A DNA stretch of 64,000 nt from assembly GCF_001261775.1 (NCBI RefSeq), contig NZ_LN868538.1, positions 434,001-498,000 on the forward strand, read 5' to 3'. Of the stretch, positions 4,642-47,411 are shown in pieces. Position 1 is the first letter of the stretch; each line of letters starts with the position of its first letter. The notes under the pieces were generated by a model. It saw only the letters and a list, made by a program, of their open reading frames with translations. It was not told the DNA's origin and made no database searches. The translations under genes and the position numbers were made by a program. The DNA is from Anaeromassilibacillus senegalensis (GTDB lineage Bacteria; Bacillota; Clostridia; Oscillospirales; Acutalibacteraceae).

Positions 4642-4733
4642 CTGCCAGATTTTGCAGACGGCAGTTGCTGCAAAGGGCCATTTCACAGCGTTTGCACGAT
4701 CACGCTCTTCCTTCTCTCCTCTCTAAAAACACG

Positions 4734-4780
4734 GAATCCCCCGGCCAAATGGCCGGGGGATTCTCAGTTGGTCTGCTTTT
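4734..4780. terminator. Terminator shared by sigK and the GH-D-like gene
   Basis: A 14-bp GC-rich stem (GAATCCCCCGGCCA with its complement) and a tiny loop lies between two convergent genes. The T-run is better on the minus strand (GTGTTTTTAG), so it may mainly end the large hydrolase transcript. Confidence 0.8.
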
Positions 4781-4795
4781 TAGTGCGATTTCAAA

Positions 4796-5029
4796 TCAGT
4801 GCACAGTAACCCCACCGTGGTTCTGTGCCGTCTGACCCGGGGCCTCCTGTCGGGACACGCTTTCAGCGAGATCCATTTCTGACAACATAATGGAACTGCG
4901 GCCGGCACGCGTCTACGACGATTCTCTTAACCGGCCCGTTTAAAATCTCAATCAATGATTACTGTACCGTGTTTAACCGGATTCTGCCCCGGGATCTCTG
5001 GTTGAGACGTGTTTACAGCAAAACCTATT
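4796..5029 (-). repeat. Three decayed copies of the 3' tail of the upstream hydrolase
   Basis: Past the stop codon of the GH-D-like gene the minus strand contains three successive relics of the sequence that encodes its final residues (PQKHCVVTIA). Read in local frames they give IPGQNPVKHGTVIID then stop (about 4948-5010), PQFHYVVRNGSR then stop (about 4866-4905), and APGQTAQNHGGVTVH then stop (4796-4850). The equivalent bases lie 82, 79 and 73 bp apart. The spacer before the stop (GAGACGTGTTTACAGC-like) also recurs, and is shared with the spacer behind the GH3 gene. The relics are not in frame with the gene. Confidence 0.7.
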
Positions 5030-8000
5030 TTAAGCAATCGTGACAACACAATGCTTTTGCGGCACGCTGTTGGACAGCTGGGTATAAACGCCGGTGCTTG
5101 CGCCGGGTGTGCCGACTGCCCACACTCTGTAATAATAGTCGTTTCCAATCCTTGCGACAAACTGTGTCTTCAAAACGTCACTGTTGCCGACCGTAAAGTT
5201 CGGAACAAGGTTGTTTCCGTTGACAACGGTCATCTTGAAGCAATATGCGCTTCCTCTACGGAGGGTAAACGGCAGCGTTGTATCGGAAATAACCGACGCC
5301 GCCTGTGCAACCGTCGCACCGCCTGTAACGACGCCCGGAGTGGTAACGGCAACCAGCGTGCCTTCCCCGGAGGTCTTGCCGGAATTGGAAGTGTTCTTAT
5401 TCCCGGAGGAGGAACCGCCGTTTCCGCCGCTGCCTTTGTGCTCCAGCTGGGCATTCGCGGCCTGCAAACGATTGCACTTCTCGTCTACAAACAGCTGATC
5501 GTCTTCGCTGAGATTCCTATTTGCCAGCGCATCCTTTGCGTCCTTGAGCGCGTTCAGGAACACGCGGGCGCTGCTTGCCGTGTAGCGGGAGGTATCGACC
5601 TTTTCCATCTCCGCAATCAACGCTTCCAGCTTCGATTTATCCGCCTTCAGACGCATGTTTGCAACCGCCTCGGTCAGCGTCTTGACCACCGCATTGACTT
5701 CCTTCTGCGTATTTTCCGCGGTCATTTCTTCCGCCGCGTCCAGCGCTTCCTGCAGCTTGTCAAAGCCGCTGTCAATGTAGCTGTCTCTGTTTTCAATAAT
5801 ATCCTTTGCCTGCTGAATCATCTTCTCCAGCTCGCTCAAATCCGCCTTCATCTGCCGCTCATCCAGCGCCTTCATCAGTGCGTCATAAGCTTCCTGGATG
5901 GAATCGTCCATTGCGTTTTCATCTGCAATGACCCCTTCTGCCAGTGCAACCGCCGCTGCAATTTTCTCCATGCTGGCTTCCGTGTACAGTTCCGGATCCA
6001 CCGCCTTGGCGACGTCGATCAGGCCCTGCAGCGCGGTCTTATTGCCCGGCTGGAAGCTGAGGAGATGCAGCGCGTCGAGCAATTCGCCCCACGCATCGTT
6101 GATTTCCTGCTGGGTTGCGGTCTTTTGCTTATCAACTTCTTTGGCATGCTTGAGCGCCTTCTCATACTTCGCCTTTATCACTGGAATGGCCTGCGCCGCT
6201 TCATCCGCACAGGATTCCGCATAAACGATCGTCGCACCCAGAACACTCTTATCGACTGCTTCAAAATGGAGGTCTACTTCGACCGCCTGATTCGGCATAT
6301 CGATGGTGTACGTATACGCGTCTATGTCAAAGTCCACTGTTTCGCCGTTGACCGTGACGCCTGCGAAGCTTCTGCCTTCTACAAACGGCGTAAAGTCCAG
6401 TGTAAGCGTTGTTCCCGCCAGTACTTCAGCCTCATACTTGCCGAGCAGGTTTGCCAGCTTCTGTACTTCGCCATCGATGGACAGGCTCGCATTCTTTGTG
6501 TACCGGACCGTAATTGTATGCTCCTCCGGAACCGGCGTGCCAACCGATACTTCACAGCTTGCCTGGAATTCCGTATCCGGAACACTTGCTGTAATGACTG
6601 CCATGCCTTCCTTCAGCGCGGTAACCACGCCGTTTTCGTCCACTACCGCCACATCTGGAGCAGAGGAAGTCCATGTAAGCGCCGTTCCGCTCAAATTCGT
6701 CGGATAGATATCCACCAGAAGCGTATCGTTGTCACCTACATCCAGGGAAACCGCTGTTTCGCGCATGGAAATTCCCGTCATATCCGGCGTATTGTATGCG
6801 CGGATCTCCGCCGCGGAGGAATAGTTGCCCACGGAGGTGATGGACATCAGTTTGAGGTTGGTAACGGTCGTGGCCGGGAAACGGACTTCTTTCCAGCCGT
6901 CTTCCGCCTTCCACTCACCGGAAGCAATCTTCTCATAGGTTGCGCCATTGTCCTTGCTGGCAAGCAGTTCAAACTGTTTGATGGTACCGTTGCCCGCACC
7001 GGATCTCGGCAGATACCGGTAGGTGTTGACGACGGTCGGTGCATTGAATTTAATATCGATCCACTGCTTGTCTCTGGAAACACCGTTCCAGTTGGTATGC
7101 CACATCGTGCTTGGATTGTCATCCAGAACCTTGGAGGCCGCTTCACTTGTGGAGTTTGCATCCCCCGCGGTGGCAGTCATCTTACTGACCGGGATTGCCT
7201 CCGGTACGGACTGGGTGCGGACACTTGCCGCGCCGCCGACATTGCCGGACGCATCCGTCGCCGCGACCGCGAAATAGTAGCTTCCATTATGGACAATTTC
7301 GTCCACAAAGGAGGTTTCATTTACCGTGACAATCAGGTTATCCTCGGACGGCACAAAGTCCGCCTGATCGGAACCATAAACATTGTAACGCACAAAGCCG
7401 CTGTCATCCGTGGACGGCTGCCAGGTGAGGGAAACCAGTCCGTCATAATCCGCAGAAGCCTTCAGACCCATAACATCTGTCGGCGCCTCGGTATCGGGCT
7501 CCATCGTGCCTTCCTCGAAGGTCAGCGTCCAGTTGGCTGTCTGATTTTCCGCAGCGTCCATGATCAATTCCACATAATTGCCAAACGCGCTGTGTACAAA
7601 GCTCGCCGTTACATTTTCATTGTCGACTTTCAGATCCTTCGCAATCAGCTCGTGGCCATCCAGCGGGATGATCGCCTTGTAGGTATCGTTGCCAACCACT
7701 TCAAATGTACCGGTCATGGTCTTGCTGGCTGCGTCGTATGCAATGTTCTTTGCGTCAAACGCTCCCTGCAGGACATGGCGGTTGGTGGAAAGCAGATACG
7801 GGTCGTCGCGGACCTCGCGGACCGCCATGGTGCGCATCTCGTTCTTTCTGACGCGCTGGCTCAGGATGTCGCTGCCCTGATATTTGCCGATGTAATTCCA
7901 GTTCCAGAAGTCCCAGACCTCGTATTCTTTTTCCGGGTCGAGTCCAACGCCGCCGAACGCGGTGTCTTTGCCCAGATCCGCCTGCATGGTCTTGGTCTGG

Positions 8001-11000
8001 CTGCCCTGGTTCCAGAACATCAGGATATGGTCGTCATATTCGGAATTAAACTTGTAATCGAAGTATTCCGGAATGTCCGTACCGCACTCAAAGAGGCCGA
8101 CCGGGCGGGCGGAAATGCCGTCAATCGGGAATGGAACAGACCGGCCGATGTCCTTGATCTTCTGGTCGTCCATACGGGTGACGCTCTCGCCGATGGTCAT
8201 CTTGCCAAACAGAAATGCGGTGCCGGTAATCTGCGCGCGGCGCAGGTCGAGATCGTTGTCCTCAAAAACTTTAACGTCGGAATAGAGAAGCTTGGTCTTT
8301 CTATGGCGGTACCACTGGTACATCGCCGTGCGGGCGATTTCCGGGGAGAACTGGTTGGTATCTCCGATGGTGCGCTGAATGTCGATCAGACCGATCGCCA
8401 AATCAGAACCGCTGTGCTCCCAGGAGTTTTCAGAAATGCGCATATCGGGGCCGACATACTTCTTCGGCAGCGCAAAGATATTGCGGTATGCGGAAACGGT
8501 TGTAGCATACGGGTCTTCAAAACCGCCGGTCTTATCCAGCAGATATCCGCCGCTCTTGCCGTGGTACTGTCCCGCATAGTCGAAGAACAGGGAGCGGATG
8601 CCCGCATCCTTAATATTGGCATACACATCCGCCATATGGGCAATGAATTCCGGATCGGTGTAGTCGGGGCCTTCCAGCGGATCGTTGTAGAGCATGTGGC
8701 CCGGGTACTGCTCGCAGTAGTCGTCGGAACGATAGGAAGCCTGCATATAGAGGCCGCCCTCGCCGCCGGCGTTGTTCATCGCCTTGTTCCAGTCTTTAAT
8801 GGTCGGATAGTTGTCCGTCATATGCCCAAACTGCTTCCAATGTGCATCGTCCCACCAGAGCTGCTCATTCGGGTTGACATAACTGTCCGGCTCCACGCGC
8901 AGGTTCGGAATCGCATAATTTGCCATGCCGCGGTCCACAAGATCCTTGACCTCCTGCACAGCGAAGTCCGCGTTGTTGGAGCCCGGGGTCAGCCAGTTGA
9001 CATACCAGAGGCATTCATAGTAATACGGGTCAAAGTCGATTAGATCGACCTCCATCGCATCTGCCTGCTTGGTCGCATAGGCGTCGAGGGAATCGTAGGG
9101 GTTCTTTTCGGTAAAGTTGATCAGCGCCTTGTCGCCCATATAGAGCTGCCCGGCGTCGACCAGTTTGCCTGTGTTATCATAAATGCGGATTTTCGCATCC
9201 ACGCTCTTTCTGCCGTTGTTTTCCAGAGAGAGGCCCGCGTTGTACGCGGTGTCGATGGTGTTCTGGAACTCATAGGTGGTCAGGCCGCCGATGAGGAAAC
9301 TTTCCTTCTCCGGATCGTTCCGGTAGGAAAGCATGGTGTTGTTCTTGGAGGTTGCCGTCGCACTGTTTACCACGCGCGGCACGGTCCAGTTGCCCTCGCC
9401 GGTCAGGATCGTGTGGTCTTCAGCCGGGTCGGGGCCGACAAAGATACCGCCGCTGCCAGCATAATTGGCAATGATCGGGTACATCTGCATCAGCTTGACG
9501 CCCGCGTCGGTGTTGTTGACAATACCAGCGGTCAGAATGACATCGCCGCAATGATCCTCCAGCGTCACATCCAGCACAATGCCGTTCGCGCCGTCTTTTT
9601 CACCGATCATGCGCATGGTTTTACCCGCGAAGCCGTCTTCAGTCACGTCTTCCATATGGAATACATACCCATTGGTGCTCTTGTCATCGTTGACCTGTGT
9701 GTAGGCGTTGAGCACATACGGCAAACCGCTTTCCTGCTCATACACCGAATAGCGGCCGGTCATTTCGTCATATACGACGCGGACCATATCGTTCTGAATC
9801 ATGGTGAACGTGTCGCCCAGCTTTACGATTTCCGTCTTTTCCGGAACCGCGACGTCTCCCAGGCTGGTAAAGCCAACTTCCGCGGTGATATTCTCGCCGC
9901 CGTTTGCGGTTGCCACGACCTTAAACGAACCGCTCTTTAAAATCGTCAGCAAACCGTCCGCGTCAATCGTTGCAACGTCCGGATCATCGGACTGCACGGA
10001 CCAGGTGATCGACTTGTCCGTCGCGATGATCGGATAAACGGTCGCCTTCATCTGCACGGAGCCAAGTTCCTGGCGGATGGTTTCGCCGTCCTCCGGCGCA
10101 ATCACCAACCGTTTGACCGGGACCACTTCACCGTAGTCGCTGTCAAAGAAGATGCCGTTGACCACTGCGTTCGTTTTAACAGGGCTGTAATTTTCATTGT
10201 TGACTTTGACGTCAACGGAGCCGCTGAACGGAATGGTCACATATTTGCCCTTAGAGAGGGTACCGATTTCCGTCTTCTTGGATATCGGAATATCCGTTCC
10301 CGGCTGGAAGAGCTGGTAGCTGACCGCTCTGCCGTTTTCATTTTCCGCCAGTGCGTAGAATGTGAGGGTATGCGTATCCGTATCGTTCACACGGATGCGC
10401 ACTGTCAGGCACTTGTCATCAAAGCGGTAGGAAATTTTGCGGGTGCCTGTTTCGTCGTCCGGATTGACGAGGCCGTACGGCAGCGTTGCCGCCGTGCCGG
10501 TTTTCGCTGTATAGTTGCCGTTGCGGTCTTCCACGCCGTACGTAATGCCGTCCACATAGTAGGGCAACTTTTCCACGTCGACAGAGCCGGCATTCCAGGC
10601 GTTCAGCACATATCCGTCCCCGCCGTAAGTACCGGTCCAGTCGCCCATCGTTGTTTCGTCGACCGTCCACTCGGCGGCTTCGCCTTCAACCACGCTGATC
10701 AAGCAACTGCCGCTGATTTCGGTGCCGTCCTTCGCCGTCGCAATCACATTGTAATTGCCCGGCGCTTCGATGTTCAGCAGGCCTGTCCCGTCGATCGTGG
10801 CCTTGCCTTCGTTCTCGGACTGCATGGGCTCCACAGACCATGAAACCTCTTTGTTGGCCGCATAAGACGGCGCAACAGAAGCGATCATCTGGATCGGGAA
10901 GTCCGACTCATCAAAGGAAGTCTGTCCATTTGGCGCGCTGACTGTAACTTTGCGCACCGGCACATCATCATATGCCAGTGTGTCAAAGAATACACCGCTA

Positions 11001-11617
11001 ATCACGACGTTTGTGACCAACTCTTTAATATTCTCATTCAAAATAACCACGTCGACATCCCCGCAGAATTCCGCGGAAACATACTGGCCATTGATAAAAT
11101 TGGAGATGGTCACTTTGTCGGAGAGTGCGCGGTCCGTGCCAGCCTCAAAAATTTGATAGCTCTGCTCGCGGTCCTGGCCCTCAGCCGCATAAATGGTAAT
11201 GGTATGCATTTCGTCGTCGTTGACATCCACATGCATAACCATTTTTTCATCGTCAAAAATATAACCCAGACGTTTTTCTTCGCCTTCCACTGCGATCTTG
11301 GAGACGTCCGGTGCGCCGCTCTTCAACCATGTGCCGTGGCGCGCAAAATAAGAATACGTAACACCTTCCACATAGTCGGGATAATTGTCCCGCGGTGTCC
11401 GGTTGCCGGTGCCTGCGCCATCATAGGCGGGCAGCGTATAGCCGTCTAACCCATATACGCCGTTGAATGCACCGTTTGTTTCTTTGTCGACCGTGAAGAA
11501 CGTCTCCACCGGTTCAAATGCTTGTGCCTGCGCGACCGCGCCAATTGGCCCTGCCGAGAACAGCATGGTACATGCCAATACCGCCGCGGCGAGCTTTTTG
11601 CCCAGCCGTGTTTTCAT
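5030..11617 (-). CDS. Giant secreted glycoside hydrolase, clan GH-D-like, with CBM32, Ig-like, FN3 and FIVAR modules
   Basis: This 2195-residue protein has a signal peptide (about 1-33, ending AQAQA). Two copies of an unnamed module follow (about 35-210 and 320-500, with GVYGLDGY versus GTYGGDGY), each with a bacterial Ig-like domain after it. The catalytic region (about 600-1370) has a beta-rich front part and a barrel resembling GH27/GH36 (clan GH-D) enzymes. Candidate catalytic acids are Asp about 1012 (SLFFDYAG) and Asp about 1084 (TIGDTNQ). After it come FN3, an F5/8 type C (CBM32-like) domain, another Ig-like domain, and the C-terminal cassette common to all four hydrolases here: an Ig-like module, FIVAR-type repeats, a Gly/Ser linker and a Cys-containing terminal domain. 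The ATG at 11617 follows AAAGGAGTGA. Alpha-galactosidase-like activity is a guess; the family assignment is the least certain of the four. Confidence 0.75.
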   Translation of the reverse strand: MKTRLGKKLAAAVLACTMLFSAGPIGAVAQAQAFEPVETFFTVDKETNGAFNGVYGLDGYTLPAYDGAGTGNRTPRDNYPDYVEGVTYSYFARHGTWLKSGAPDVSKIAVEGEEKRLGYIFDDEKMVMHVDVNDDEMHTITIYAAEGQDREQSYQIFEAGTDRALSDKVTISNFINGQYVSAEFCGDVDVVILNENIKELVTNVVISGVFFDTLAYDDVPVRKVTVSAPNGQTSFDESDFPIQMIASVAPSYAANKEVSWSVEPMQSENEGKATIDGTGLLNIEAPGNYNVIATAKDGTEISGSCLISVVEGEAAEWTVDETTMGDWTGTYGGDGYVLNAWNAGSVDVEKLPYYVDGITYGVEDRNGNYTAKTGTAATLPYGLVNPDDETGTRKISYRFDDKCLTVRIRVNDTDTHTLTFYALAENENGRAVSYQLFQPGTDIPISKKTEIGTLSKGKYVTIPFSGSVDVKVNNENYSPVKTNAVVNGIFFDSDYGEVVPVKRLVIAPEDGETIRQELGSVQMKATVYPIIATDKSITWSVQSDDPDVATIDADGLLTILKSGSFKVVATANGGENITAEVGFTSLGDVAVPEKTEIVKLGDTFTMIQNDMVRVVYDEMTGRYSVYEQESGLPYVLNAYTQVNDDKSTNGYVFHMEDVTEDGFAGKTMRMIGEKDGANGIVLDVTLEDHCGDVILTAGIVNNTDAGVKLMQMYPIIANYAGSGGIFVGPDPAEDHTILTGEGNWTVPRVVNSATATSKNNTMLSYRNDPEKESFLIGGLTTYEFQNTIDTAYNAGLSLENNGRKSVDAKIRIYDNTGKLVDAGQLYMGDKALINFTEKNPYDSLDAYATKQADAMEVDLIDFDPYYYECLWYVNWLTPGSNNADFAVQEVKDLVDRGMANYAIPNLRVEPDSYVNPNEQLWWDDAHWKQFGHMTDNYPTIKDWNKAMNNAGGEGGLYMQASYRSDDYCEQYPGHMLYNDPLEGPDYTDPEFIAHMADVYANIKDAGIRSLFFDYAGQYHGKSGGYLLDKTGGFEDPYATTVSAYRNIFALPKKYVGPDMRISENSWEHSGSDLAIGLIDIQRTIGDTNQFSPEIARTAMYQWYRHRKTKLLYSDVKVFEDNDLDLRRAQITGTAFLFGKMTIGESVTRMDDQKIKDIGRSVPFPIDGISARPVGLFECGTDIPEYFDYKFNSEYDDHILMFWNQGSQTKTMQADLGKDTAFGGVGLDPEKEYEVWDFWNWNYIGKYQGSDILSQRVRKNEMRTMAVREVRDDPYLLSTNRHVLQGAFDAKNIAYDAASKTMTGTFEVVGNDTYKAIIPLDGHELIAKDLKVDNENVTASFVHSAFGNYVELIMDAAENQTANWTLTFEEGTMEPDTEAPTDVMGLKASADYDGLVSLTWQPSTDDSGFVRYNVYGSDQADFVPSEDNLIVTVNETSFVDEIVHNGSYYFAVAATDASGNVGGAASVRTQSVPEAIPVSKMTATAGDANSTSEAASKVLDDNPSTMWHTNWNGVSRDKQWIDIKFNAPTVVNTYRYLPRSGAGNGTIKQFELLASKDNGATYEKIASGEWKAEDGWKEVRFPATTVTNLKLMSITSVGNYSSAAEIRAYNTPDMTGISMRETAVSLDVGDNDTLLVDIYPTNLSGTALTWTSSAPDVAVVDENGVVTALKEGMAVITASVPDTEFQASCEVSVGTPVPEEHTITVRYTKNASLSIDGEVQKLANLLGKYEAEVLAGTTLTLDFTPFVEGRSFAGVTVNGETVDFDIDAYTYTIDMPNQAVEVDLHFEAVDKSVLGATIVYAESCADEAAQAIPVIKAKYEKALKHAKEVDKQKTATQQEINDAWGELLDALHLLSFQPGNKTALQGLIDVAKAVDPELYTEASMEKIAAAVALAEGVIADENAMDDSIQEAYDALMKALDERQMKADLSELEKMIQQAKDIIENRDSYIDSGFDKLQEALDAAEEMTAENTQKEVNAVVKTLTEAVANMRLKADKSKLEALIAEMEKVDTSRYTASSARVFLNALKDAKDALANRNLSEDDQLFVDEKCNRLQAANAQLEHKGSGGNGGSSSGNKNTSNSGKTSGEGTLVAVTTPGVVTGGATVAQAASVISDTTLPFTLRRGSAYCFKMTVVNGNNLVPNFTVGNSDVLKTQFVARIGNDYYYRVWAVGTPGASTGVYTQLSNSVPQKHCVVTIA

Positions 11618-11884
11618 AAAATCACTCCTTTTCAATTCTCAACCATCCTTCATTCTTCCAAAATTTTACGCAATTGAACCTCCTTCCTCCCCATTTTATA
11701 TCTAAAAAGGAAATCAATTATCTCCTTTTCAGCTCCGCTTATTACATATTTAGATATATTTTACTAACATAGTATATATAAATTATCCATGTTATTAATT
11801 CTTTTTTATATTATTGGTATATAATGGAAGGATTTTATTTTGCACAGGATATATATTTACCCATTCACTGAAACGGCAAAATAA
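11618..11884. other. AT-rich leader region of the GH-D-like gene
   Basis: No gene is supported. On the minus strand the leader has an orphan strong Shine-Dalgarno (GGAAGGAGG, about 11678-11690) followed by a 7-codon frame starting TTG at 11673 and ending TGA, some 56 nt before the true start. It might be a leader peptide or chance. Farther upstream the DNA is very AT-rich (11740-11830), probably holding the promoter, but no clear -35/-10 pair could be picked. Confidence 0.35.
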
Positions 11885-12481: not shown

Positions 12482-12564
12482 TCAGGCGACGGTAATCATA
12501 CAATGTTTCTGCGGAGCTTCGTCCGGAAGCTCCGGTCGGGACGCGCTTACAGCGAGCACCCCTT
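12482..12564 (-). repeat. Extra divergent tail copy behind the GH3 gene
   Basis: Past the GH3 stop, 83 bp from the equivalent bases of the gene, the minus strand encodes LPDEAPQKHCMITVA then TGA, clearly related to the gene's own MPNEAPQQHCVVTIA end. The frame differs from that of the gene because 83 is not a multiple of three. The spacer (GGTCGGGACGCGCTTACAGC on the plus strand) resembles those behind the GH-D-like gene. Confidence 0.75.
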
Positions 12565-15500
12565 TTAAGCGATTGTGACAACACAATGCTGCTGCGGCGC
12601 CTCATTTGGCATTTGGGTGTATACGCCGGTGCTCTGGCCCGGTGCGCCAATCGCCCAAATGCGGAAATAATACGCATTGCCAATCTTGGCCACGAACTGG
12701 GTCTTGAATGCATTGCCATTGCCGACAGTGAAACTCGGCACCGCAGCGCTTCCATTGACAACCGTCATCTTGAAGCAGTACGCCGCGCCTCTCTTAATGG
12801 AGAACGGCAATGTGGTATCGGAAACAACGGAAGCGGTCTTCGCCACAGTTGTTCCACCCGTTACGACCGGGGCCGCCGGTACAACCGGAGCTGTTCCATC
12901 GCCGGAAACCTTACCGGAGGAACCGCCCTTATTACCGGAACCGCCGCCGGAGCTGCCATGGCTGTTGTTGTCCTTGCCTTTCTCGACCAGCGCGTCTACC
13001 AGGTTGTCAATTTTTGCTGCTCTCGCGTCGATCTCGGGCTGATCCTCTGCGTCAAGGTCTGTATCCAGGTAGTTTTTAGCCGCTTTGATTTCGCTCAGGA
13101 GCGCATTGACGCCGGAAGCCTCATATTTGCTGAGGTCCATCTTCTCTACGTCCGCAATCAGGGTTTCCAACGCCTTCTTGTTCGGTACTCTGCGCAGAGC
13201 CGCCATCGCGTCCGCCAGTTTCTTCGCCGCCGCCTTGATCTCGCTCTGGGACGCTTCTTCGTCATCCACGACTTTCTTCGCTTCTGCCAATGCCGTCTGG
13301 AACGCTTCCTGATTATCCGGCAGGAACGCGCCCGCTTCGATCTCTTCGGCAATGGCCATTGCCTCGACGACCACAGTGTTCAGGTAGGTTTTATCCACCT
13401 TATCCAGCAGGGCGATCATGGCGTCGTACAGCGCGTCTGCCGCGTCTTTTACCTCTTCTTCCAGGGCATTATCGTCCGCAACGACGACCTTTGCCGCTTC
13501 CAGGGCATTCTCAAATGCCTCGATGTCGCTCGGCAGGGAACCTTCCGTATCGACCTCTTCGGAAATATTGATCAGATAATTCAGGTAGGTCTTATCGCCG
13601 GCCTTGAAGCTCAGCATCTGGATGACGTCGATCAGCTTGAAGCTTGCGTCATTCAGTTCCGCCTGCGTCGCGTCCGGGTTATCCAGCAGCGCTGTTGCCG
13701 CCGCGATGGCGTCGGTCAGGGCTTCCTGCACCGCCGGAATTGCTTCCTTGTACTCGTCGGTCGTGAGGCAATCCTCCGCAATTGCAAGTACAGTGCGCAG
13801 GGTAGATTTGTTCAGCAGGGTGTAAGAGAAATTCAGCGTGTTGTTCTGGTAATCCGCTGTGTACACATAGTCAAAGCGTGTCGGATCCTTTATTGCAACG
13901 GGTTCGCCGTTAAGCAGGACCTTGCTGAATTCCTTACCGTCCGCACGCGGGATAAAGCTGAGCGCCACGGTCTCGCCGCGCTTTGCAATACCGTCGTAGC
14001 GGCTGATGTTGTCCGCAAACTTCTGCTCCTCGCCGTTTACCAGCAGGGAAGCATCTCTGCCAACATAGTTGACTGTGTAGGAGACATCTTCCATTACCTT
14101 GGGTACGAATTTGAACCAGTTGACGTTAAAACCGGTGACCGTGCAGTAGAACTGCAGCTCATGACGTCCGGCGGGAAGGGTGATTTCAAACGGCTCCAGG
14201 GTCGTCCAGCTCTGCCAGCCGCCGGTGGGGGCCATGCTGGAAACGCCGCCGATGCTCTTGCCGTCCAGACGGAGGTCAAATCCACCATCCGCGTTAACCG
14301 CCACTCTGGTATAGAAATCATAGGTGCCGGGAGCTTCAATATCAAAGTAGTACTTCATCCAGTTGCCCTTGTCCGTATGAGTCGGATTGGTACCGCCGCC
14401 TTCGTCCTCGCAGGCTTCTTCGCCGATACCGAGGGCTTTGAAATAATCGATTGCTTTAATGGTCGTTTCTTCCGTCGCGCTGATCGGCACATATTCCGGC
14501 TGAGGCGGGTTGACGATTTCGCGATCCATAACAGGGGTTTTCATGATCATTTCCAGCGTGCGGGCAATATTGCGTTCCAGCTCCGCACGGGTCAGATCGC
14601 CGTTTTCCAGAGCGGTCAGGATGCTGTCGGAGCTGCCACTCGGCATCTTGACATCATCGCCCGCTTTGACTTCCTTCCAGTGGGTGCTGTCATTGCCCCA
14701 GTCGGACATGACCATACCCTTGAATCCCCACTCGCCACGGAGAATATTGGTCAGGATATCGTAGTTTTCAGAAACTTCCGTTCCGTTTACATAGTTGTAG
14801 GAGGACATGATACACCACGGGTCCGCTTCCTTTACCGCGATTTCAAAGCCCTTCATATAGATTTCACGCAGAGCGCGCTCGGACATTCTGCTGTCGCTCG
14901 CATTTCGGTTGTTTTCCTTGTTGTTTGCCACAAAGTGCTTGAGGGTAATGGAAACGCCTTCGCCTTGCACACCTTCGGTGATAGCAGCCGCCGTTTTACC
15001 AGTGAGCAGCGGATCTTCAGAGTAATACTCAAAGTTGCGGCCGCACAGCGGATTGCGGTGAATGTTCATGCCAGGTGCAAGCCAGATATCCAGCTTCTTC
15101 TCCAACGCCTCTGTTGCAACGCCTTTGCCGACCTTCTGTGCAAGATCAACATCCCACGTGCTGGCCAGGTTCGTAGAGCACGGCCATGCGGTGGCTGTAC
15201 CGGAACGAACGCCGGCTGGTCCGTCGGTGGTCTGCGCTCCCGGGATGCCATATTCGTCCAGTCCACCGATAATACCTGTCGCAATACCGGGATGTCCCTG
15301 GGACAAATAAGCCAAGTCTTCATTGGAGAGCTGCGCGATAAAATCGTCCATCGTCGCCGTCCCATGATAGACGTCGATCAGCATGATTTTATCCGTCGGT
15401 TCATCGTCCGCCGCTTTTGCGGAAGATGCCGCACGGCTGCCCGCAGCCTTACTGCTCGCGGCAGAGGAGGCACGGAACGCTGCCGCCGCAGGCTCCTCAG

Positions 15501-17781
15501 CTTCTGCTTTGGAGAAATCCATATAGTCGATATTACCGAACAATCCGGTGGAAACCAGTTTGAATTCACAAAGCCCCTTCGGCAGATTCACCTGAATTGG
15601 GCCAAAGGTCTCAAAATTATACCACTCGCTCTTGCCTTCACCGTCGCCGGTCTGCGGAAGGTTGAAATTGATGCCCGGCTGCAGCTTGCCGTCCACGTAA
15701 ACGCGCATCATATCCGGGATTTCCGGACGGCCGTTGGACATGCTGAAAGAAATGTTGTACTCGCCTTCTTCTTCCACATTGAGGTAATAGGTAACCCAGT
15801 TGCCTTCATAGTTCATGTAGGCCAGCGTGCTGATTTCTTCGTCACCCGGCTGCGGCACATAGCCCAGCGGATGGTTGGGAACACAGTTTTCAATTCGGAC
15901 GCTGCCCGCCGCGCCGAAGAACTGTTCTGCTTCCACGCGGGAGGTCTCTGTTGCAGAAATGGCAAAACCTTCTTCCGGTTGAACCATATTAAACGTCATA
16001 TAGTCGGTGTTACCGTATTTGGTACCTTTGCAGGTAAGCTTTAATGTGCAGGGACCCTTTGGCAGCTTAACCTCAAATGGCTCCAGGTCGATAAAGTTAT
16101 ACCATTCTGCTTTGCCGCTGCCGTCGCCTGTCTGCGGCAGGTTAACAACAACCTTCTGATCGCGGCCTTCCACCTCAACAGTAACCATGTCTTTAATTTC
16201 CGCATAACCGTTGGACATATGGAGCTGCACGGCATAGGTTCCGGCTTGTTCCACATTCAGACTATAGGAAACCCAGCGGTGTTCTTCCGCACTGTCCATG
16301 AACGCCACGCACTGTCCATCGCCAAATGACTCTACCACTACGTTTGCATGTGCGGATTCATAGTCTTCCGCCTCCACCTTTGTCGGCTCTGTGGCGGAAA
16401 TCTTTTTGATAGCCTCGCTGCGCATATCCTCATAGCTGCCGTCCGCCAAAAGACGTTTCGGAAGGCGTTTCGGAGCCGCCTGCTCGGAAAGCTGCTCGGT
16501 TACATACGCTTCTTCTACCGTATAGGTACCGCGCACGCCCTTTTCGCCGGCGTCCCGAATAGAATTGCCGACATAGACGTCATAGTCGCCGGCTTCCAGC
16601 ACATAAGCGGATTTATGTCCGGTAATCCCAGTATCGTCATAACTGGACATATCCTCGATTGCAAAAGACATTTTCAGAGTCTCAGAAGCCTCCGGCTCCA
16701 AAAGCCCCGTTTTTGCATAAGCCGCCAGCTCTTTTGCAGGTTTGCCCAAGACAGCGGTACCGGTACCCATCTGCGGCGCACTGAAATAGACCTGCGCCAC
16801 TTCTTTACCCGCCACATCGCCGGTATTGGTGATTGTCGCTTCCACATTGATATTTTCTTCATCGTATGTAACCTTTACATCGGTCATATCAAATGTGGTA
16901 TAGGAAAGGCCGTAACCAAACGGATAGCTGACCTTCTCATACTCTTGATCAAAGGTCTCAAAATAACGGTATCCTACAAAGACATCCTCTTCGTAGTTGA
17001 CATATGCGTTATTGCTGAAGTTATTGGAAGACGGATAATCCTCGTAATTTTTCGCCCAGGTATCCGTCAGTTTGCCGGAGGGGTTGACGTCTCCGCAAAG
17101 CACGTCCGCGATGGCGTTTCCACCCTCCATACCGGCCTGCCAGCCGATCAGAACGGAGTCGATCTCAGGATGCGCTGTGATCCATTTGGTATCGATAATA
17201 CCGCCGATATTCAGGACCACGACAACATTCTCAAAGCCCGCCGCGCAGACCAGATCCAGCATTTGGGATTCGGTATCACTTAAGAGATAATCTCCCTTTC
17301 CGGCGCTTCTGTCAGAGCCTTCACCGGAATTGCGGCTGATGACTACAACCGCCGTATCAGACTCGGCTGCCGCCGTGTTGGCCATATCTGCCGTCAGTGT
17401 CAACGCCTTGTTCGCTGTATAAGCATCAACCAACGTTTTGTTCAGGGTGATCTTGCCTTCTTTTTCTTTATTCTGCATTCCCTGCAGAATATTGACCAGA
17501 TAATCTACGCTCGTGTCACCGGAACCCCAGCCGCCCTTCACGTAGTCGATCTGGCCCTGCCCGAAAAGTGCCACCGAACCGCCCTGCGGAATCGGCAGGC
17601 CATTGTCCTTGTTTTGCAGCAATACCATACCTTCGCTTGCCACCTGACGCGCCAGCTCCGGATTGCCCGGCGAATACTTAGCGCTGGCTACCGGCGCCGC
17701 CGGTATTGTTCCAAACAGCATAGTCATGGTAAGAGCCGCCGCCAGAATTTTCTTCGCTGCGCCTTTTCTTTTCAAACTCAT
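12565..17781 (-). CDS. Giant secreted GH3 glycoside hydrolase with swapped domain order and inserted CBM6 modules
   Basis: This 1738-residue protein has a signal peptide (about 1-36). The usual GH3 order is inverted. The C-terminal alpha/beta domain and FN3-like part come first (about 37-450, with SRNSGEGSDR and YPFGYGLSYT). Two CBM6-like modules (about 460-600 and 607-760) and an Ala/Ser-rich linker follow. Then comes the (beta/alpha)8 domain (about 797-1095), with the substrate motif KHFVANN and nucleophile Asp1027 in VMSDWGND. A third CBM6-like module (about 1098-1228) and the shared Ig-like/FIVAR/terminal-domain cassette complete it. The ATG at 17781 has GGGGG 7 nt upstream. A beta-glucosidase-type exo-hydrolase is likely; the sugar is not defined. 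Inverted GH3 order is known in ruminal clostridial enzymes, but the module insertion is unusual. Confidence 0.88.
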   Translation of the reverse strand: MSLKRKGAAKKILAAALTMTMLFGTIPAAPVASAKYSPGNPELARQVASEGMVLLQNKDNGLPIPQGGSVALFGQGQIDYVKGGWGSGDTSVDYLVNILQGMQNKEKEGKITLNKTLVDAYTANKALTLTADMANTAAAESDTAVVVISRNSGEGSDRSAGKGDYLLSDTESQMLDLVCAAGFENVVVVLNIGGIIDTKWITAHPEIDSVLIGWQAGMEGGNAIADVLCGDVNPSGKLTDTWAKNYEDYPSSNNFSNNAYVNYEEDVFVGYRYFETFDQEYEKVSYPFGYGLSYTTFDMTDVKVTYDEENINVEATITNTGDVAGKEVAQVYFSAPQMGTGTAVLGKPAKELAAYAKTGLLEPEASETLKMSFAIEDMSSYDDTGITGHKSAYVLEAGDYDVYVGNSIRDAGEKGVRGTYTVEEAYVTEQLSEQAAPKRLPKRLLADGSYEDMRSEAIKKISATEPTKVEAEDYESAHANVVVESFGDGQCVAFMDSAEEHRWVSYSLNVEQAGTYAVQLHMSNGYAEIKDMVTVEVEGRDQKVVVNLPQTGDGSGKAEWYNFIDLEPFEVKLPKGPCTLKLTCKGTKYGNTDYMTFNMVQPEEGFAISATETSRVEAEQFFGAAGSVRIENCVPNHPLGYVPQPGDEEISTLAYMNYEGNWVTYYLNVEEEGEYNISFSMSNGRPEIPDMMRVYVDGKLQPGINFNLPQTGDGEGKSEWYNFETFGPIQVNLPKGLCEFKLVSTGLFGNIDYMDFSKAEAEEPAAAAFRASSAASSKAAGSRAASSAKAADDEPTDKIMLIDVYHGTATMDDFIAQLSNEDLAYLSQGHPGIATGIIGGLDEYGIPGAQTTDGPAGVRSGTATAWPCSTNLASTWDVDLAQKVGKGVATEALEKKLDIWLAPGMNIHRNPLCGRNFEYYSEDPLLTGKTAAAITEGVQGEGVSITLKHFVANNKENNRNASDSRMSERALREIYMKGFEIAVKEADPWCIMSSYNYVNGTEVSENYDILTNILRGEWGFKGMVMSDWGNDSTHWKEVKAGDDVKMPSGSSDSILTALENGDLTRAELERNIARTLEMIMKTPVMDREIVNPPQPEYVPISATEETTIKAIDYFKALGIGEEACEDEGGGTNPTHTDKGNWMKYYFDIEAPGTYDFYTRVAVNADGGFDLRLDGKSIGGVSSMAPTGGWQSWTTLEPFEITLPAGRHELQFYCTVTGFNVNWFKFVPKVMEDVSYTVNYVGRDASLLVNGEEQKFADNISRYDGIAKRGETVALSFIPRADGKEFSKVLLNGEPVAIKDPTRFDYVYTADYQNNTLNFSYTLLNKSTLRTVLAIAEDCLTTDEYKEAIPAVQEALTDAIAAATALLDNPDATQAELNDASFKLIDVIQMLSFKAGDKTYLNYLINISEEVDTEGSLPSDIEAFENALEAAKVVVADDNALEEEVKDAADALYDAMIALLDKVDKTYLNTVVVEAMAIAEEIEAGAFLPDNQEAFQTALAEAKKVVDDEEASQSEIKAAAKKLADAMAALRRVPNKKALETLIADVEKMDLSKYEASGVNALLSEIKAAKNYLDTDLDAEDQPEIDARAAKIDNLVDALVEKGKDNNSHGSSGGGSGNKGGSSGKVSGDGTAPVVPAAPVVTGGTTVAKTASVVSDTTLPFSIKRGAAYCFKMTVVNGSAAVPSFTVGNGNAFKTQFVAKIGNAYYFRIWAIGAPGQSTGVYTQMPNEAPQQHCVVTIA

Positions 17782-17982
17782 TTTCAAACCCCCGTTCGTT
17801 TCATAAACTCCTTATTCCAATCGTTTGCCCGATCCTGTATTTTGTCCCTCCTTTTCTTTATCAGTTGTATCAGTATGGAAATGGTTCCATAAACAGCTCT
17901 TTTGCTATATTGAATGTAATACCATCTCCCCTCCCCAATGAAAACCTCACTATAGTTATTAATCCGTTGAACCTATGATCTT

Positions 17983-18175: not shown

Positions 18176-18475
18176 GTCTTTCACACCTATGTTGGTTTTC
18201 AGTGGCGGCAATCAGTCGATTGTAACCACACAGTGCTGCTGCGGACGTACAACGTCATTCGCACTTACGATGGTTTTCAGTGGCAGTAATCAGCCAATCG
18301 TTACCACACAGTGCTGCTGCGGACGTACAACGTCATTCGCACCTACGGTGGTTTTCAGTGGCAGCAATCAGCCAATCGTTACCACACAGTGCTGCTGCGG
18401 ACGTGCAACGTCATTCGCACCTACGGTGGTTTTCAGTGGCAGCAATCAGCCAATCGTTACCACACAGTGCTGCTG
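18176..18475 (-). repeat. 78-bp tandem array carrying the GH31 gene's last codons and stop
   Basis: The plus-strand sequence GGTTTTCAGTGGC recurs at 18194, 18272, 18350 and 18428, an exact period of 78 bp (26 codons). Each unit encodes, on the minus strand, QQHCVVTIG followed by TGA and then an open spacer reading about LLPLKTTVGANDVARP. The copy nearest the gene supplies its genuine stop at 18446-18448; the other stops are at 18368, 18290 and 18212, all in the gene's frame. The inner units are nearly identical while the outermost is slightly diverged (VTID). No CRISPR-like arrangement is present: there are no unique spacers and no palindromic repeat. Confidence 0.9.
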
Positions 18476-21400
18476 GACCTTCTCACTCGCCATTGTGGTA
18501 TACACGCCGGTGCTCTGGCCCGGAGTGCCGACCGCCCAGACTCTGTAATAGTAGTCATTGCCGATCTTCGCCACAAACTGGGTCTTCAGCACACTGCCGT
18601 TACCCACGGTGAAGTTCGGGGCCGCGCTGCTGCCGTTGACAACCGTCATCTTGAAGCAGTAGGCGCTGCCTCTCTTCAAGGTGAAGTTTGCCGTGGTATC
18701 GGAACGGACGGATTTCTGGCCCATCACGTTCTGTACCGCGTTGATTAACGGGTTGGGCACAGCAACTGCCGTTCCTGTTCCGGAGGTGTTGCCAACCGGC
18801 TTCTTGCTGCCGTTGCTGGACGGTTTATTGCTCGGCTTGTTGGCAGGCTCTTCCGGTTTGTCCGCCAGAACCAGACCCGCACGGGCCTTCTCTACCGTCG
18901 CGCAGACCGCCGTGATTTCCTCCGGGGTGGCGTTCTCATCTTCATAGACGCCCTGCGCGTTGTTCAGCGCCGCACGCAGGATTGCGTAACTCGCCTCGGT
19001 GTAATCATCCGGATTGAGCGCTTCCGACTCGTCGATCAGGTCCTTCAGCACTTTCTTGTCCGGGATCATGCGCAGGTTCATCATCGCTTTGTACAGGGCG
19101 TCCGCCATTTCGTCCACCTGCTTCTGGGTCGCATTCGCGTCCTCCAGAAGGGCTTCCGCCTGCGGGAACAGCTCGTTGAACTTGTCTTTTTCCGGGCCGT
19201 CCAGGTACTTGTCAATTTCAATCTCCTGTGCCTGCTGTACAAAGGCTCCCAGCACTTCCGTGTTTGCCTTGAACTCCAGGCGCAGGATTGCTTCTTGCAG
19301 GTTCTTTGCCGCCTTTTCAACTTCCGCCTTCAGCGTTTCGCCCTCGTCGTTGTAGATCTCTTCCGCATAGGCGAGCGCTTCCGCATAGCCTTCCAGGCTC
19401 TTCGGGGTGAAGTTGTTCAAGTCGAGCATGGCGGCGTAGTCGAGCCAGTATTCCAGCTCGTCCTTGGTGCCCGCCTCAAAGGAGAGGTAATGCATCGCGT
19501 CGAGCAGTTCCTTCCAGGCTTCGTTTACTTCTTCCTGGGTGGCACTGTCGTCTTCATAGACGGCCTTCGCGTTGTCGCGCGCCGCGATGAAGCGATTGCT
19601 TACGGACTCGACCAGACCAGCAAGCTGCTCATTGGTCACTTCGTTTGCCTTCTCCAGCAGGGTTTCCAGAATCCCCTTGCTTACGCTGGTGAATACAAAG
19701 CGCAGGGACGCCTTATCGTTCGGCATGGTAAAGGTGTAGGTGCAGCCGTCTGCCTCAAACGGGATGTCTTCTCCGTTAAGCTGCGCGCTTGCGAACGGGC
19801 CGTCTGCTGGGGTGAAGCTGAAGGTCAGCGTGTCGCCCGCATAGACCGTCGCGCCGAGCATGCCGTCCCGCTCGATGAGCGCTTCGTATGCACCCTCTAC
19901 AGACAGCGTTGCGTTTGTTCCATACTGCACCGTCAGGACCTGCTTCTCCAAGCCGGAGACGCGGTCGAACCGCAGGGAATCCAGATTAAAGTTGCCGGAG
20001 TTTGCAGAACCCTCGGAACGAATCTTAATGGTGTGTTTGCCTTCCGTCAGGGCAACGCCAGAGAGAACTTCTTCAAACCATTCGCCCCAACTCTGACGGA
20101 CCTTCAATGCAAAATCTTTCACCTTGACGCCGTCCACATACAGCGCGCCTGTGCGCGGCGTATTATCGAACTGTGCGCCGTTCTTTTTGCCGCAGGCCGC
20201 ACGGAGAGCCAAGTCATACATGCCGGCCTGTTTGACATTGACATCAAACTCAACAAAGTGGCCTACCGCTTTCCAGCCCGCTACATAGCCGCTGCCGGTG
20301 TAGCCCTTCCACTCGGTGTCCACACGGACTTTGCCGCTGCCGTCGCCATTGCCGCTGCTGGTATCGCCTCTGGCGTTCTCCAGTTCAAAGACGCTTCCGG
20401 ACTCAATGTCGTTCTCGCCCTCTTCCAGCGTTACAGTAACGTCCACACGTGTGCTGTCCGGCACGACAAAGGTGTACTCTTTGCCCGCTTCCACTTCGGT
20501 CAGCGCAACGGTGTTGCCATCCGCATCGACTGCGGAAATAGATTTAAACTTTCTGCCCATCTCGATATTGGAAATACGGACAGTTACAGTGTCGCCCACT
20601 TTTACGCTCTCCGGCGTCACTGCTACGGTCGCGCTGCCGCCGGTCACCTCTGTGGAAACAGAGGAACGGTCGCTCTTAAAGCGGAACCAATCCATATCGC
20701 AGATGGACTTATCTGTCTCTGTATTGACGAATTTGAGATAGACGTCATGCGTGCCGACAACGGTATCGCATACGCCGGTGTACGTTTTCAGCGTATTCCA
20801 GTCGCCGGTATTTGCAATCTTTACCTCTGCGACCTTCTCGCCGTCCACGGCGTCGAGACGGACTTCCATCGTGCCGCCCTGCAGGCCGGCCGCGACGCGG
20901 ACTTCCACGCTCGCCGCGTCTCCGTCTCCAAAGTCTACGTTGTTAAACTTGGCCCAATCGCCATTCTCAATGTGGTTCAAGACAGTAATTTTCTGTCCGT
21001 TAACCGTCTTGGAGGCGGTATCGATTCCCTGCCGATCGTCGGCGGTTTCCGCTTCGATCTGGCTGAAGGCGTCAATTACCTTGCGATTGGAAATAAATTT
21101 GATCCAGTCCATATCGCAGATGGAACTGGTGGTGGAGGTGTTGACAAACTTGAGATAGACGTCGTGAATTCCGGTGATTTCCATGCAGTCGCCAGAATAC
21201 ACCTTCAGGGTATCCCAGTTGCCGGTAGGTGCAATTTCGACTTCCGCCGCTTTGACACCGTTCACGGAGTCGAGACGAACTTCCAGCGTACCGCCCTGCA
21301 GGCCGGCTGCCACCTGGGTTTCAAAGCTTACCACGCCGCCTTCGCCAAAGTTGACGTCGCTGAACTTCGCCCAGTCGCCGTCCTCAATGTGATTCAGCAG

Positions 21401-24400
21401 AGTATAACGCTGTCCGCTGATGGTCTTTGAGGTGGTATCGATGCCATGGCGCTCGTTTGCGGTCTCCGCCTCAATCTGGCTGTATGCATCGATGGTCGCT
21501 TTATCGGTTGTAAAGTGGAACCAGTCTACATCGCAGTCAAAGCTCTCCGCGCCTTCCTTCGCAACAAAGGACAGGTAAATGTTGCTGGTCACAGCATCCG
21601 TATCCTTTGATACAGATGTCAGTGTGGTCCACTTGCCATTTGCCGGGATTTCCAGCGTGGCAAGAATCTTATCACCCACACCGTTTTCATAGACGACTAT
21701 GCTGCCGCCGGTGGTGCTCTTGACGCGCAGGGCAAGTCCGCTCTTCTGGCTGCCGCGCACTTCGTCAAACTGCACCCAGGCGCCGTTCTCTGTCACGGCG
21801 AGCTTGCTGCCGCCGGAGGCCGCGGTATCCGCAGCGACTGCCACGCCGCCCTCCAGGTGCGATGCGCTTTCCGCCTCAATCTTGCTGAACGCGTTGACAG
21901 AGGTGTCCACATAGCGGAAGGTCAGGGAATCCAGATTGTAATTGCCCGGATTGCTGCCCTCAGCGCGAATCTTCATGGTGGTAACGCCCGATTCGAGCTT
22001 CACACGGTAGGTGTAATCCACCCAAACGCCCTGCTTGACGCCATCCACGGTTTCGCCCCACTTGTCGGTCACTGCAAAGGCGAGGTCTACCGCCTTCTGG
22101 TTCTGGATATACAGGCCGCCGGTGCGCGGCGTGCTGTCGAACTGCGGCGCGTTCTTTTTGCCGTTGTTGACGCGCAGCACCAGATCATAGGTGCCGGCGG
22201 TCTCAACATTGACGTCGAACTGAACCGCATCGCCAACCGCTTTAAAGCCCTTGGCAAAGCCGCTGCCGGTGTAACCCTTCCACTCATTGTCCGGTTTGAC
22301 TTCTCCGCCGCTCGCGGGCAGCATTTCCGTCTCTTCCATTTCAATGACGCTGCCGTCCGTGATTCTGGTCGGCGGGTTTCCTTCGTTCTCGTCGCCCAGC
22401 TCCGGCTCCACGATGCCGCCAGACGCAAGGACTACATCGATCTCCTTGCCGGTATCCGGGGTGCGGACATAGACGGTGTTGGCGTCCGTATCCAGCCAGT
22501 AAGCCTGCTCCGCGGCGTTGTATGCTTCCAGGGAATCCGCAGCTGTAATCGCCGTACCGTTGATGGTCACGCCGCTGACTTCTGCGATATGGTTAAACTT
22601 GAGATTGTAAGAACGCGCATCCGGGGTGTAGACCGCCGGATTGTTGTCCACTCTCTCATGGATCTTGAAGGAGATATCGGTTCCGTCCTGAATGCTTTCA
22701 AAAGTTGTGGTGCTGTAAGCATTCTCTGTGATGTACTTGCGGCTCTGACCATCGTCTTCGTACAGGGTAAAGGAGGTCTTTCCCTTCGGATAGATGTCGA
22801 GGGTGAGCGGGTCGAGCGGTTTTTCGTCCGCATAGTTGACGTCCGGGCCCATCGGGACAATTGCGCCGGACTTAACAAATACCGGGATTTCTTCCAGCGC
22901 CGCCGCCACGGTGATGTTTTTGCCGATGGGGCCGCCTTCATAGCGCTCGCCGGTATAATAGTTGTACCATGTGGTTTCCGGAGGCAGCCACACCTTGACG
23001 GTGGTGTCCGCTGTGGCGGAAGCCGGCGCTACCAGGAACCAATCGCCATAGTAGTACTGCTTGTTCAGATCCCAGGCAGCCGGGTTATACTGGCTGTCAT
23101 CTTCCAACAGCATGGCGCGCATCATCGGTACGCCCTGGCTGTAGCCCTGCCATGCCAGGGAATAGGTGTACGGGTACAGTGCATAACGAACCTGCAGGTT
23201 CTGCTTGAGCGTGTCCTGCGCGGTCTGGTCAAAGGTCCAGGGCTCGCGTCCATCGTGGCCGTGTGTACGCATCATACCGCTCCACGCACCGAACTCAGAA
23301 ACCCAACGGGTATACAGCTCATTGCTCGGGCGCTTCATAAAGCCGCCCAGGTCGTTGGAGGATGTCCAGTAACCGACCAGGCCTGCGTCAATGCTGAAAC
23401 CGATCTGGTTATCCAGCTCCGCGCTGGTATTATTGATATCGCCGGACCATGCGGTCGCAAAGTGCTGGCCCGCATAGCTGCCTCTGGTGACAAACATCGG
23501 ACGGGATTCGTCCGTATATTCCTGCCACGCCTCATAGGCGCCCTTGGAGGAGAACGTCGGGGCGGTGTTGGTGCCCAGAACGTCGAACTCATCCGGCCAG
23601 AACCAATCGCCGTATCCGGTGGTGATTACGCTGTCCATATAGGACTTCACCCATTTTTCCTCGTTCTCCGGCTTGTAGAGTTCCTTGCCGCCGGAAGCCT
23701 CCGGCGTACCCGCGTTGTTATGCAGGCCGACATGGAATCCCAGCTCGTCCGCTTCTTTAAACATGGCGTCGATATCCGGGAATTTATTGGTATCGTTGCT
23801 CCACATCTGCTTGCCCCACTTTTCGCCCGCGCCGTGCTGTGGGTTGCCGTTATCCGCAACGTCGCCGCGCCAGCCGTAGTCGAACACATAGCAGTCGGTC
23901 GGATATCCCTCGTCGCGCAGACGATGCAGCCACTCCAGGAATTCCTTCTGTGTCGCGTTGTCGTTGCCGTACTTGGAGAGCATAAAGCCGTGCGCCCATT
24001 TGCCGTACAGCTCCATGCGGCCGGTAATCTCCGCGTACTCGTTCAGAATGGTCTTAAAGTCCGGGCCATACATAAAGAAATAATCCAGATAGCCCTTCGT
24101 CTGGAAACCGCCGCCCTGTTTAAAGAACTTGGTTTCCTTCTCAATGGTGTTGAGGAACACGCCGTAACCGACCGTGCTCATAAAGAACGGTGCGATCAGC
24201 CGGCCGTGGCTCATGCTGAATTCCGTAAAGTCGCTGCCGTAGCGATTCAGATTGGAACGGCGGCCGTGGTCACCGGATCCAAAACCGAAAATGCCGCCGG
24301 CATTTTTGGCACCTTCCACACGCTTGACGCCGCGTACGCCGGAATCGTCCCAATACATGCCCTGATCATCGGCGTCCTTGCTGAGCAGATTGCCCTCCAG

Positions 24401-24790: not shown

Positions 24791-24924
24791 ACAAACCCCT
24801 TTCTTGTCTCCTTTTCCGGCTGTGATCAGCTGGAAAAGACCATCTTTACCCATTTCTTCTCCCTTTCTATACCTCTTCGTTCCCACCTTTCTCATAGGAG
24901 ATTTGAACACTCCTTGTTGTATTC

Positions 24925-30510: not shown

Positions 30511-37733
<7,223 letters not shown>

Positions 37734-47193: not shown

Positions 47194-47330
47194 CCCCCCT
47201 GTCGATACAATTGGTCACTTACTTGGTCGCTCCCAATTTCAAAGAGCTATCCATATAAACGCAGTTTGCCGGGAGCGGCCCTTTTCTGTCCCGCCCAGAC
47301 GCATTTCCGATTTTCACCATGGTTCAGGGC

Positions 47331-47411
47331 GGGCCGTGCATACAAACTCAGTTTGTCGGGCCGTGCATGCAAACTCAGTTTGCCGGGCCGTGCGTGCAAA
47401 CTCAGTTTGCA
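47331..47411 (-). repeat. 27-bp tandem repeat spanning the ntpB stop codon
   Basis: There are three units of 27 bp (47331-47357, 47358-47384, 47385-47411) of plus-strand type GGGCCGTGCATGCAAACTCA plus GTTTGCC. Each contains, on the minus strand, the hyphenated palindrome GCAAAC-TGA-GTTTGC whose centre is a stop codon. The unit nearest the gene provides the genuine ntpB stop (47402-47404). A weaker fourth relic lies near 47257-47280. Confidence 0.88.

Follow-up and report, generated by a model that had tools for sequence, protein, structure and literature searches.

Displaced tail copies behind a giant secreted-protein gene of Anaeromassilibacillus senegalensis and a proposed renewal of gene ends by short units of tail and hairpin spacer

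Introduction

Partial gene copies lie beside the expressed copy in pilin-type silent cassettes, while in tRNA-type islands integrative elements supply a new gene 3' end and displace the old one. The locus described here lies in a stretch of 64,000 nucleotides of the Anaeromassilibacillus senegalensis genome (contig NZ_LN868538.1, positions 434,001 to 498,000), which is called the window below. As with silent cassettes, partial copies adjoin an expressed gene, but here they decay and encode nearly the same strand. As with the islands, a new 3' end seems to be supplied and the old one moved downstream, but the insert here is 78-83 bp, contains no gene and has a variable copied length.

Di Nocera et al. 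(2013, PMC3733652) describe REP clusters that are reiterated in tandem together with flanking DNA segments, and this is the nearest described phenomenon. The features shared with that account are short palindromes, many intergenic copies lying mostly 3' of coding regions, and flanking DNA reiterated in tandem. Unlike the clusters described there, the flanking DNA here comes from the coding end of a single gene family, the units are spread among paralogs and would renew their 3' ends, the stems are of only 4-5 bp and a RAYT-type transposase was not found. Apart from PMC3733652, a literature search covering mostly papers outside subscription found nothing on point about gene-end renewal by tail units.

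Results

The gene, its tail and its C-terminal domain

The minus-strand open reading frame at 5030-11635 encodes 2,201 amino acids ending in PQKHCVVTIA and a stop. Pfam found Big_2, F5/8 type C and FIVAR domains in its product and gave no confirmation of the GH-D-like label it had received in the preliminary description; the label is kept here only as a name. The last 85-100 or so amino acids form a domain that has no Pfam entry as such; its match to AlphaC_N (E 3e-4, 21 bits against a curated cut-off of 25) is sub-threshold, as is that to a related NCBIfam model. An AlphaFold2 model of this domain has eight strands (mean pLDDT 91), and the closest solved folds are domains of the SbsC S-layer protein (4uid, TM about 0.7). 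On this model the tail of the gene, which is the sequence found repeated downstream, encodes the last beta-strand of the domain (residues 92-99).

The domain closes about 80 giant secreted proteins in the A. senegalensis genome (86 matches at E 1e-10) and was present in 4/4 genomes of the genus (86, 74, 47 and 37 matches) and in 0/26 outside it (30 searched). The tail variants encode a nearly identical strand (HCVVTIG vs HCVITIA), and functional tails differ freely at synonymous sites. The features of the window that concern these tails are as follows, with loci numbered L.

5030-11635, minus strand: GH-D-like gene, functional tail at 5030-5074 (open reading frame; AlphaFold2 model of the last domain)
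4993-5029, minus strand: type-2 spacer of unit 1 (homologous to other type-2 spacers)
4948-4992, minus strand: relic 1, about 45 nt, ending PVKHGTVIID and a stop (profile score 18.0)
4902-4947, minus strand: spacer of a third type, GATTTTAAAC..CGTGCCGG (common to L049 and L077)
4880-4901, minus strand: relic 2, about 9 nt deleted (weak alone; cassette common to L049)
4840-4879, minus strand: second copy of the type-2 spacer (sequence comparison)
4796-4839, minus strand: relic 3, ending AQNHGGVTVH and a stop, the former gene end (score 4.1; aligned with the L176 tail and flank)
4724-4764, minus strand: terminator-like hairpin and T run past the relics (read by eye from the sequence)
12482-12564, minus strand: one type-2 unit (spacer and displaced tail) behind the GH3 gene 12565-17787 (not in ortholog L188)
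18176-18445, minus strand: three type-1 units of 78 bp and a partial spacer behind the GH31 gene 18446-24910 (sequence comparison, tail-profile scan)
30511-30588, minus strand: one type-1 unit behind the GH2 gene 30589-37485 (not in ortholog L166)

The GH3 gene listed above has a reversed domain order, its C-terminal GH3 domain (54-296) preceding the N-terminal one (847-1078), and a 27-bp tandem repeat in three copies lies elsewhere in the window at 47330-47410.

Three relics stand behind the GH-D-like gene

Three decayed tail copies at steps of 82, 79 and 73 nt, with a second spacer type between them, had been proposed for 4796-5029, and this layout holds: tail-like stretches end 82, 161 and 234 nt past the stop, and the spacers are of type 2 (AATGGT..GACCGGAGGTCC) plus a third type containing GACCGCAGG. 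Scoring used a 33-nt tail profile built from the other domain genes, with the gene's own tail excluded, and for the null the same 330 nt were shuffled 1000 times (first-order) and the top-scoring site of each shuffle was taken. Relics 1 and 3 (18.0 and 4.1) lay above all 1000 shuffles (maximum -0.7, 99th percentile -8.9) and are thus significant with base composition taken into account, and relic 2 (-15.4, about the 95th shuffle percentile) is not significant by itself. Relic 2 is credible because 4796-4947 aligns, for the greater part of its length, with the array behind a paralog, L049 (local alignment score 99, compared to a mean of 18.6 and a maximum of 35 in 500 shuffles), whose middle copy is full length and about 9 nt longer than relic 2; the NGSR and stop that had been taken as the end of relic 2 belong instead to the following spacer. 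In an ungapped recurrence test, in which the last 30 nt of 29 long open reading frames of the window were compared with the following 300 nt, the four domain genes ranked 1-4 (30, 24, 20 and 18 matches; best other frame 17), the result for 5030-11635 alone being marginal.

Relic 3 is a former gene end

The ortholog L176 of Clostridium sp. D33t1 is 91% identical to the 5030-11635 protein across 807 aa, the domain not counted, and its downstream flank matches at 89.7% over 812 nt; the D33t1 gene carries one unit where the source genome has three. Its unit consists of a partial type-2 spacer, then AQNRCVVTVG and a stop, then the same flank as stands behind relic 3. Both this displaced tail and the flank behind it can be aligned with relic 3, which identifies relic 3 as the gene's former 3' end, a point that the preliminary description had not recognised; the two extra units were either gained in the source genome or lost in D33t1. 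Relic 3 differs from its D33t1 counterpart at 6/33 positions, and five of these six are first or second positions of codons; the functional tails of the two genes differ at 3/33. More distant best matches were L151 of An250 (57%), where the hairpin spacer is of another kind and copies lie at +52 and +361, and L187 of UC5.1-1E11 (56%), which has no copies.

Units behind every domain gene of the window

All four domain genes of the window are followed by units, a point that also goes beyond the preliminary description. There the relics had been taken for an earlier form of the GH31 array. The units of the GH31 array hardly differ from one another and no full unit of their type was found in the nearest species compared, while a unit of the GH-D array is present there; for these reasons the GH-D array is the older, and it reflects the same process. 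It is not a version of the GH31 array, however, as it belongs to a separate gene, its copies derive from different tail variants and the GH31 spacer (type 1, TTGCTGCC..GACGTTGTACGTCC) is of a separate family.

How common the units are

The 3' ends of 80 loci of the source genome were sampled and four (L060, L086, L087 and L088) were left out, and with a copy called at a tail-profile score of at least 5 within 500 nt downstream, 26 of the remaining 76 domain genes had a tail copy and 50 had no unit. Tail copies, with other spacers, were also found in the congeners: 12/42 loci in Clostridium sp. D33t1_170424_F3, 8/26 in Anaeromassilibacillus sp. An250 and 1/6 in Clostridia bacterium UC5.1-1E11 (all from one scan, in which 42, 30 and 8 loci were examined of the 74, 47 and 37 domain matches, and 42/42, 26/30 and 6/8 of these were long enough for the 500-nt count). 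This gives 47 array-bearing genes among the 150 examined in the four related genomes, compared to 1 for the reverse-complement and 0 for the reversed control over all 150. Extending the scan to 900 nt, with a profile made from own and relatives' tails together (also used for the frame count of displaced copies below), gave 13/42, 8/28 and 3/8 in the relatives. The initial profile, from which the window units were listed, included the badly framed L060, which was dropped from later profiles.

Ortholog pairs place the breakpoints in the last 48 bp

Six clean ortholog pairs (protein identity 84-93%, flanks in agreement) differ by exactly one unit of 78, 82 or 83 bp, which one of the two species has and the other lacks, and the breakpoints fall in the final ~48 bp of the gene; the direction of these differences, gain or loss, is unrooted and the copy numbers are small. 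Left out of these six were L016/L109, L011/L153 (a contig cut) and L045/L157 (whose "empty" partner has a weak copy), and a nine-case table including them leaves the picture unchanged. L016/L109, L018/L117 and L020/L114 were rejected as orthologs, their flanks fitting but their proteins not being best matches.

Between positions -75, -48, -33, -18 and 0, identity to the empty ortholog was 0.85, 0.73, 0.77 and 0.66 for the front copy and 0.23, 0.58, 0.83 and 0.83 for the displaced copy; ten unit-free ortholog pairs gave 0.88, 0.77, 0.85 and 0.85, and the paralog baseline was 0.78, 0.50, 0.69 and 0.66. The front copy thus tracks the empty ortholog until about -18, its last 18 nt being at the paralog baseline, and the displaced copy tracks it in the last 33 nt but not upstream of -48. 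Over nine cases, the last 18 nt of the front copy were in 6 more similar to fronts that share its spacer type than to the orthologous tail (0.82 vs 0.69). Long gene-conversion tracts into the domain were rejected, because domain identity stays at the ortholog level until about -50. The length of tail copied depends on unit type (30-35, 33-48, 24-32 and 36-78 nt).

In L013/L112 and L023/L110, where protein and flank are orthologous, a type-1 unit in the source genome and a type-2 unit in D33t1 stand at the same place, suggesting repeated events at one site. Within the source genome, L021 (C9:380339) and L023 (C9:372415), 8 kb apart, have the start of their downstream flank in common (CAATCCATCCGG...); only one of the two has a type-1 unit, so that they form a filled and empty pair inside one genome. 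Separately, the body of L020 matches L117 of D33t1, whose flank matches that of L018 (the other D33t1 locus concerned being L114), as if whole genes had been lost or gained via exchange of paralogous 3' ends.

Old displaced copies have lost codon constraint

Taking the nearest functional tail as reference, and with displaced copies divided by us into recent and old from spacer type and spacing, differences at codon positions 1/2/3 were 21/19/33 in the 31 old copies and 45/26/155 in functional tails (Fisher p 5e-4), and nonsynonymous to synonymous differences were 39:26 and 68:138 respectively (p 1.4e-4), both p values being nominal because the sequences are related. The 28 recent copies (4/5/18) resembled functional tails, and 26/28 were intact in frame. 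The His-Cys pair was retained in 143/151 functional tails, 26/28 recent copies and 21/31 old copies. Old displaced copies as a class have lost codon constraint, while recent ones have not.

The spacers belong to a dispersed REP-like hairpin repeat

With up to 3 mismatches, GCGTCCCGACCGGAGGT has 168 matches in the genome compared to 12 for the reversed pattern, and these often form inverted pairs 130-220 bp apart; the spacers consist of modules of an interspersed REP-like hairpin repeat. The 13-nt hairpin that closes the type-1 and An250 spacers has several paired variants, and a perfect 5-bp stem was present at 33/55 own and 44/53 An250 anchors (9-10% of shuffled stretches) and at 4/12 D33t1 hairpin anchors (control 14%). 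One spacer type has spread within each lineage: among the four genus genomes, full type-1 tail units were found in the source genome only, and type-2 units resemble one another most closely in D33t1 (about 11 at 87-96%), those of the source genome being fewer and more diverged.

Many dispersed extragenic palindromic copies were found, as in REPs, their placement between genes being judged by eye. CGTC stands before one of the palindromes, but these have stems of 4-5 bp and 3-nt loops, compared to stems of 8-9 bp and loops of 4-5 for the CGTC REP families in PMC3733652, and we call the spacers only REP-like because they fail this stem definition. No RAYT transposase (GTAG type) was found in the genome, a search for Y1_Tnp (PF01797) giving 0 matches there and being positive in 5/14 control genomes.

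A dispersed modular hairpin repeat was seen at L089-L108 of the source genome (e.g. C9:3899/4030, C12:841045/841241). Its copies frequently stand in inverted orientation to each other at a distance of 130-220 bp, such pairs having 19-bp end modules that are each repeated one to three times, and it may be a MITE-like element. At L100 and L107 (C12:1138000-1139500, C9:455800-456600) there are adjoining direct repeats of about 297 bp with the same hairpin modules inside.

Discussion

We propose, at a probability of about 0.62, that homology-guided insertion of a tail and hairpin-spacer unit renews the gene end, and that the displaced old end decays. The unit would be a copy of the domain's 3' tail joined to a short REP-like hairpin spacer, and homology between tails would guide it into the tail of a recipient gene. 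The reading frame of that gene would then continue into the new tail and its stop, while the old tail, shifted into the untranslated region, would lose selection and decay. Each unit type probably arose when a tandem duplication fused the hairpin end (GTCC) to a C/CC in the tail, and may have spread from paralog to paralog through short gene-conversion tracts or template switching during replication, for which a dedicated enzyme would not be needed and from which the cell would draw little or no benefit. Copying from one paralog's tail to another's seems the likeliest route given the short changed stretch, the synonymous variation of the tails, the type-dependent copied length (24-78 nt) and the lack of a REP transposase. 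Against the proposal, two of the six clean pairs (L051/L188 and L042/L166) have no foreign front tail, their last 33 nt being 87 and 84% identical as in unit-free pairs, and no recombination intermediate or within-species polymorphism was seen. Stop-codon readthrough joining the copies was rejected as a general account, since type-1 units of 78 bp keep the frame but most type-2 units are of 82 bp.

At L042 and L113 the spacer lies between two stretches of recipient tail sequence, as insertion with target duplication would also produce. A tiny mobile element (the spacer, ~34-48 bp, with its hairpins) that a trans-acting recombinase or transposase actively inserts into the conserved tail would further explain why many genes have a single unit at one and the same position, why each lineage has its burst of one type and why spacer modules are dispersed through the genome. 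We consider this unlikely, because the duplicated length is not constant but type-specific at 24 to 78 nt, unlike that of a fixed staggered cut, free synonymous variation in the tails leaves no fixed DNA site, and the genome has no Y1 (REP-type) transposase in the PF01797 search. Slightly more doubtful is a genus-specific mini-element (~35-50 bp) that homes into the 3' tails of this large secreted-enzyme family and rewrites the codons of the last beta-strand each time, driven by an unknown enzyme or by a defined mechanism of fork-stalling at the hairpins; were it true, the arrays would be a dated insertion record with the newest insertion adjoining the gene.

Retention of the units as RNA structures of the 3' untranslated region, with a role in mRNA protection or regulation, would suit hairpin modules with paired variants sitting between stop and terminator, but it is improbable when about two thirds of the genes have no unit, the array at 4796-5029 is decaying and no known RNA family matched in the window at Rfam gathering scores. 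It is harder still to believe in a reservoir of alternative 3' ends for switching in the manner of silent cassettes: nearly all recent copies keep an intact frame, and tails that recombine would indeed swap ends, but old copies are without the codon constraint that coding selection would maintain, and variants of nearly one strand offer little to vary. Chance resemblance, for which only the non-significance of relic 2 by itself and the marginal ungapped recurrence of 5030-11635 speak, is refuted for relics 1 and 3 by the shuffles and is highly improbable overall, with a nearly intact copy in L176 where relic 3 stands and a relic cassette common to L049.

Renewal of gene ends by tail and spacer units would mean that hairpin repeats repeatedly renew the coding end of an entire protein family, and it would account for runs of gene-end copies that are open to misreading as pseudogenes or silent cassettes. 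The 47 array-bearing genes, some with filled and empty orthologs, are material for studies of small repeats and of short-homology recombination.
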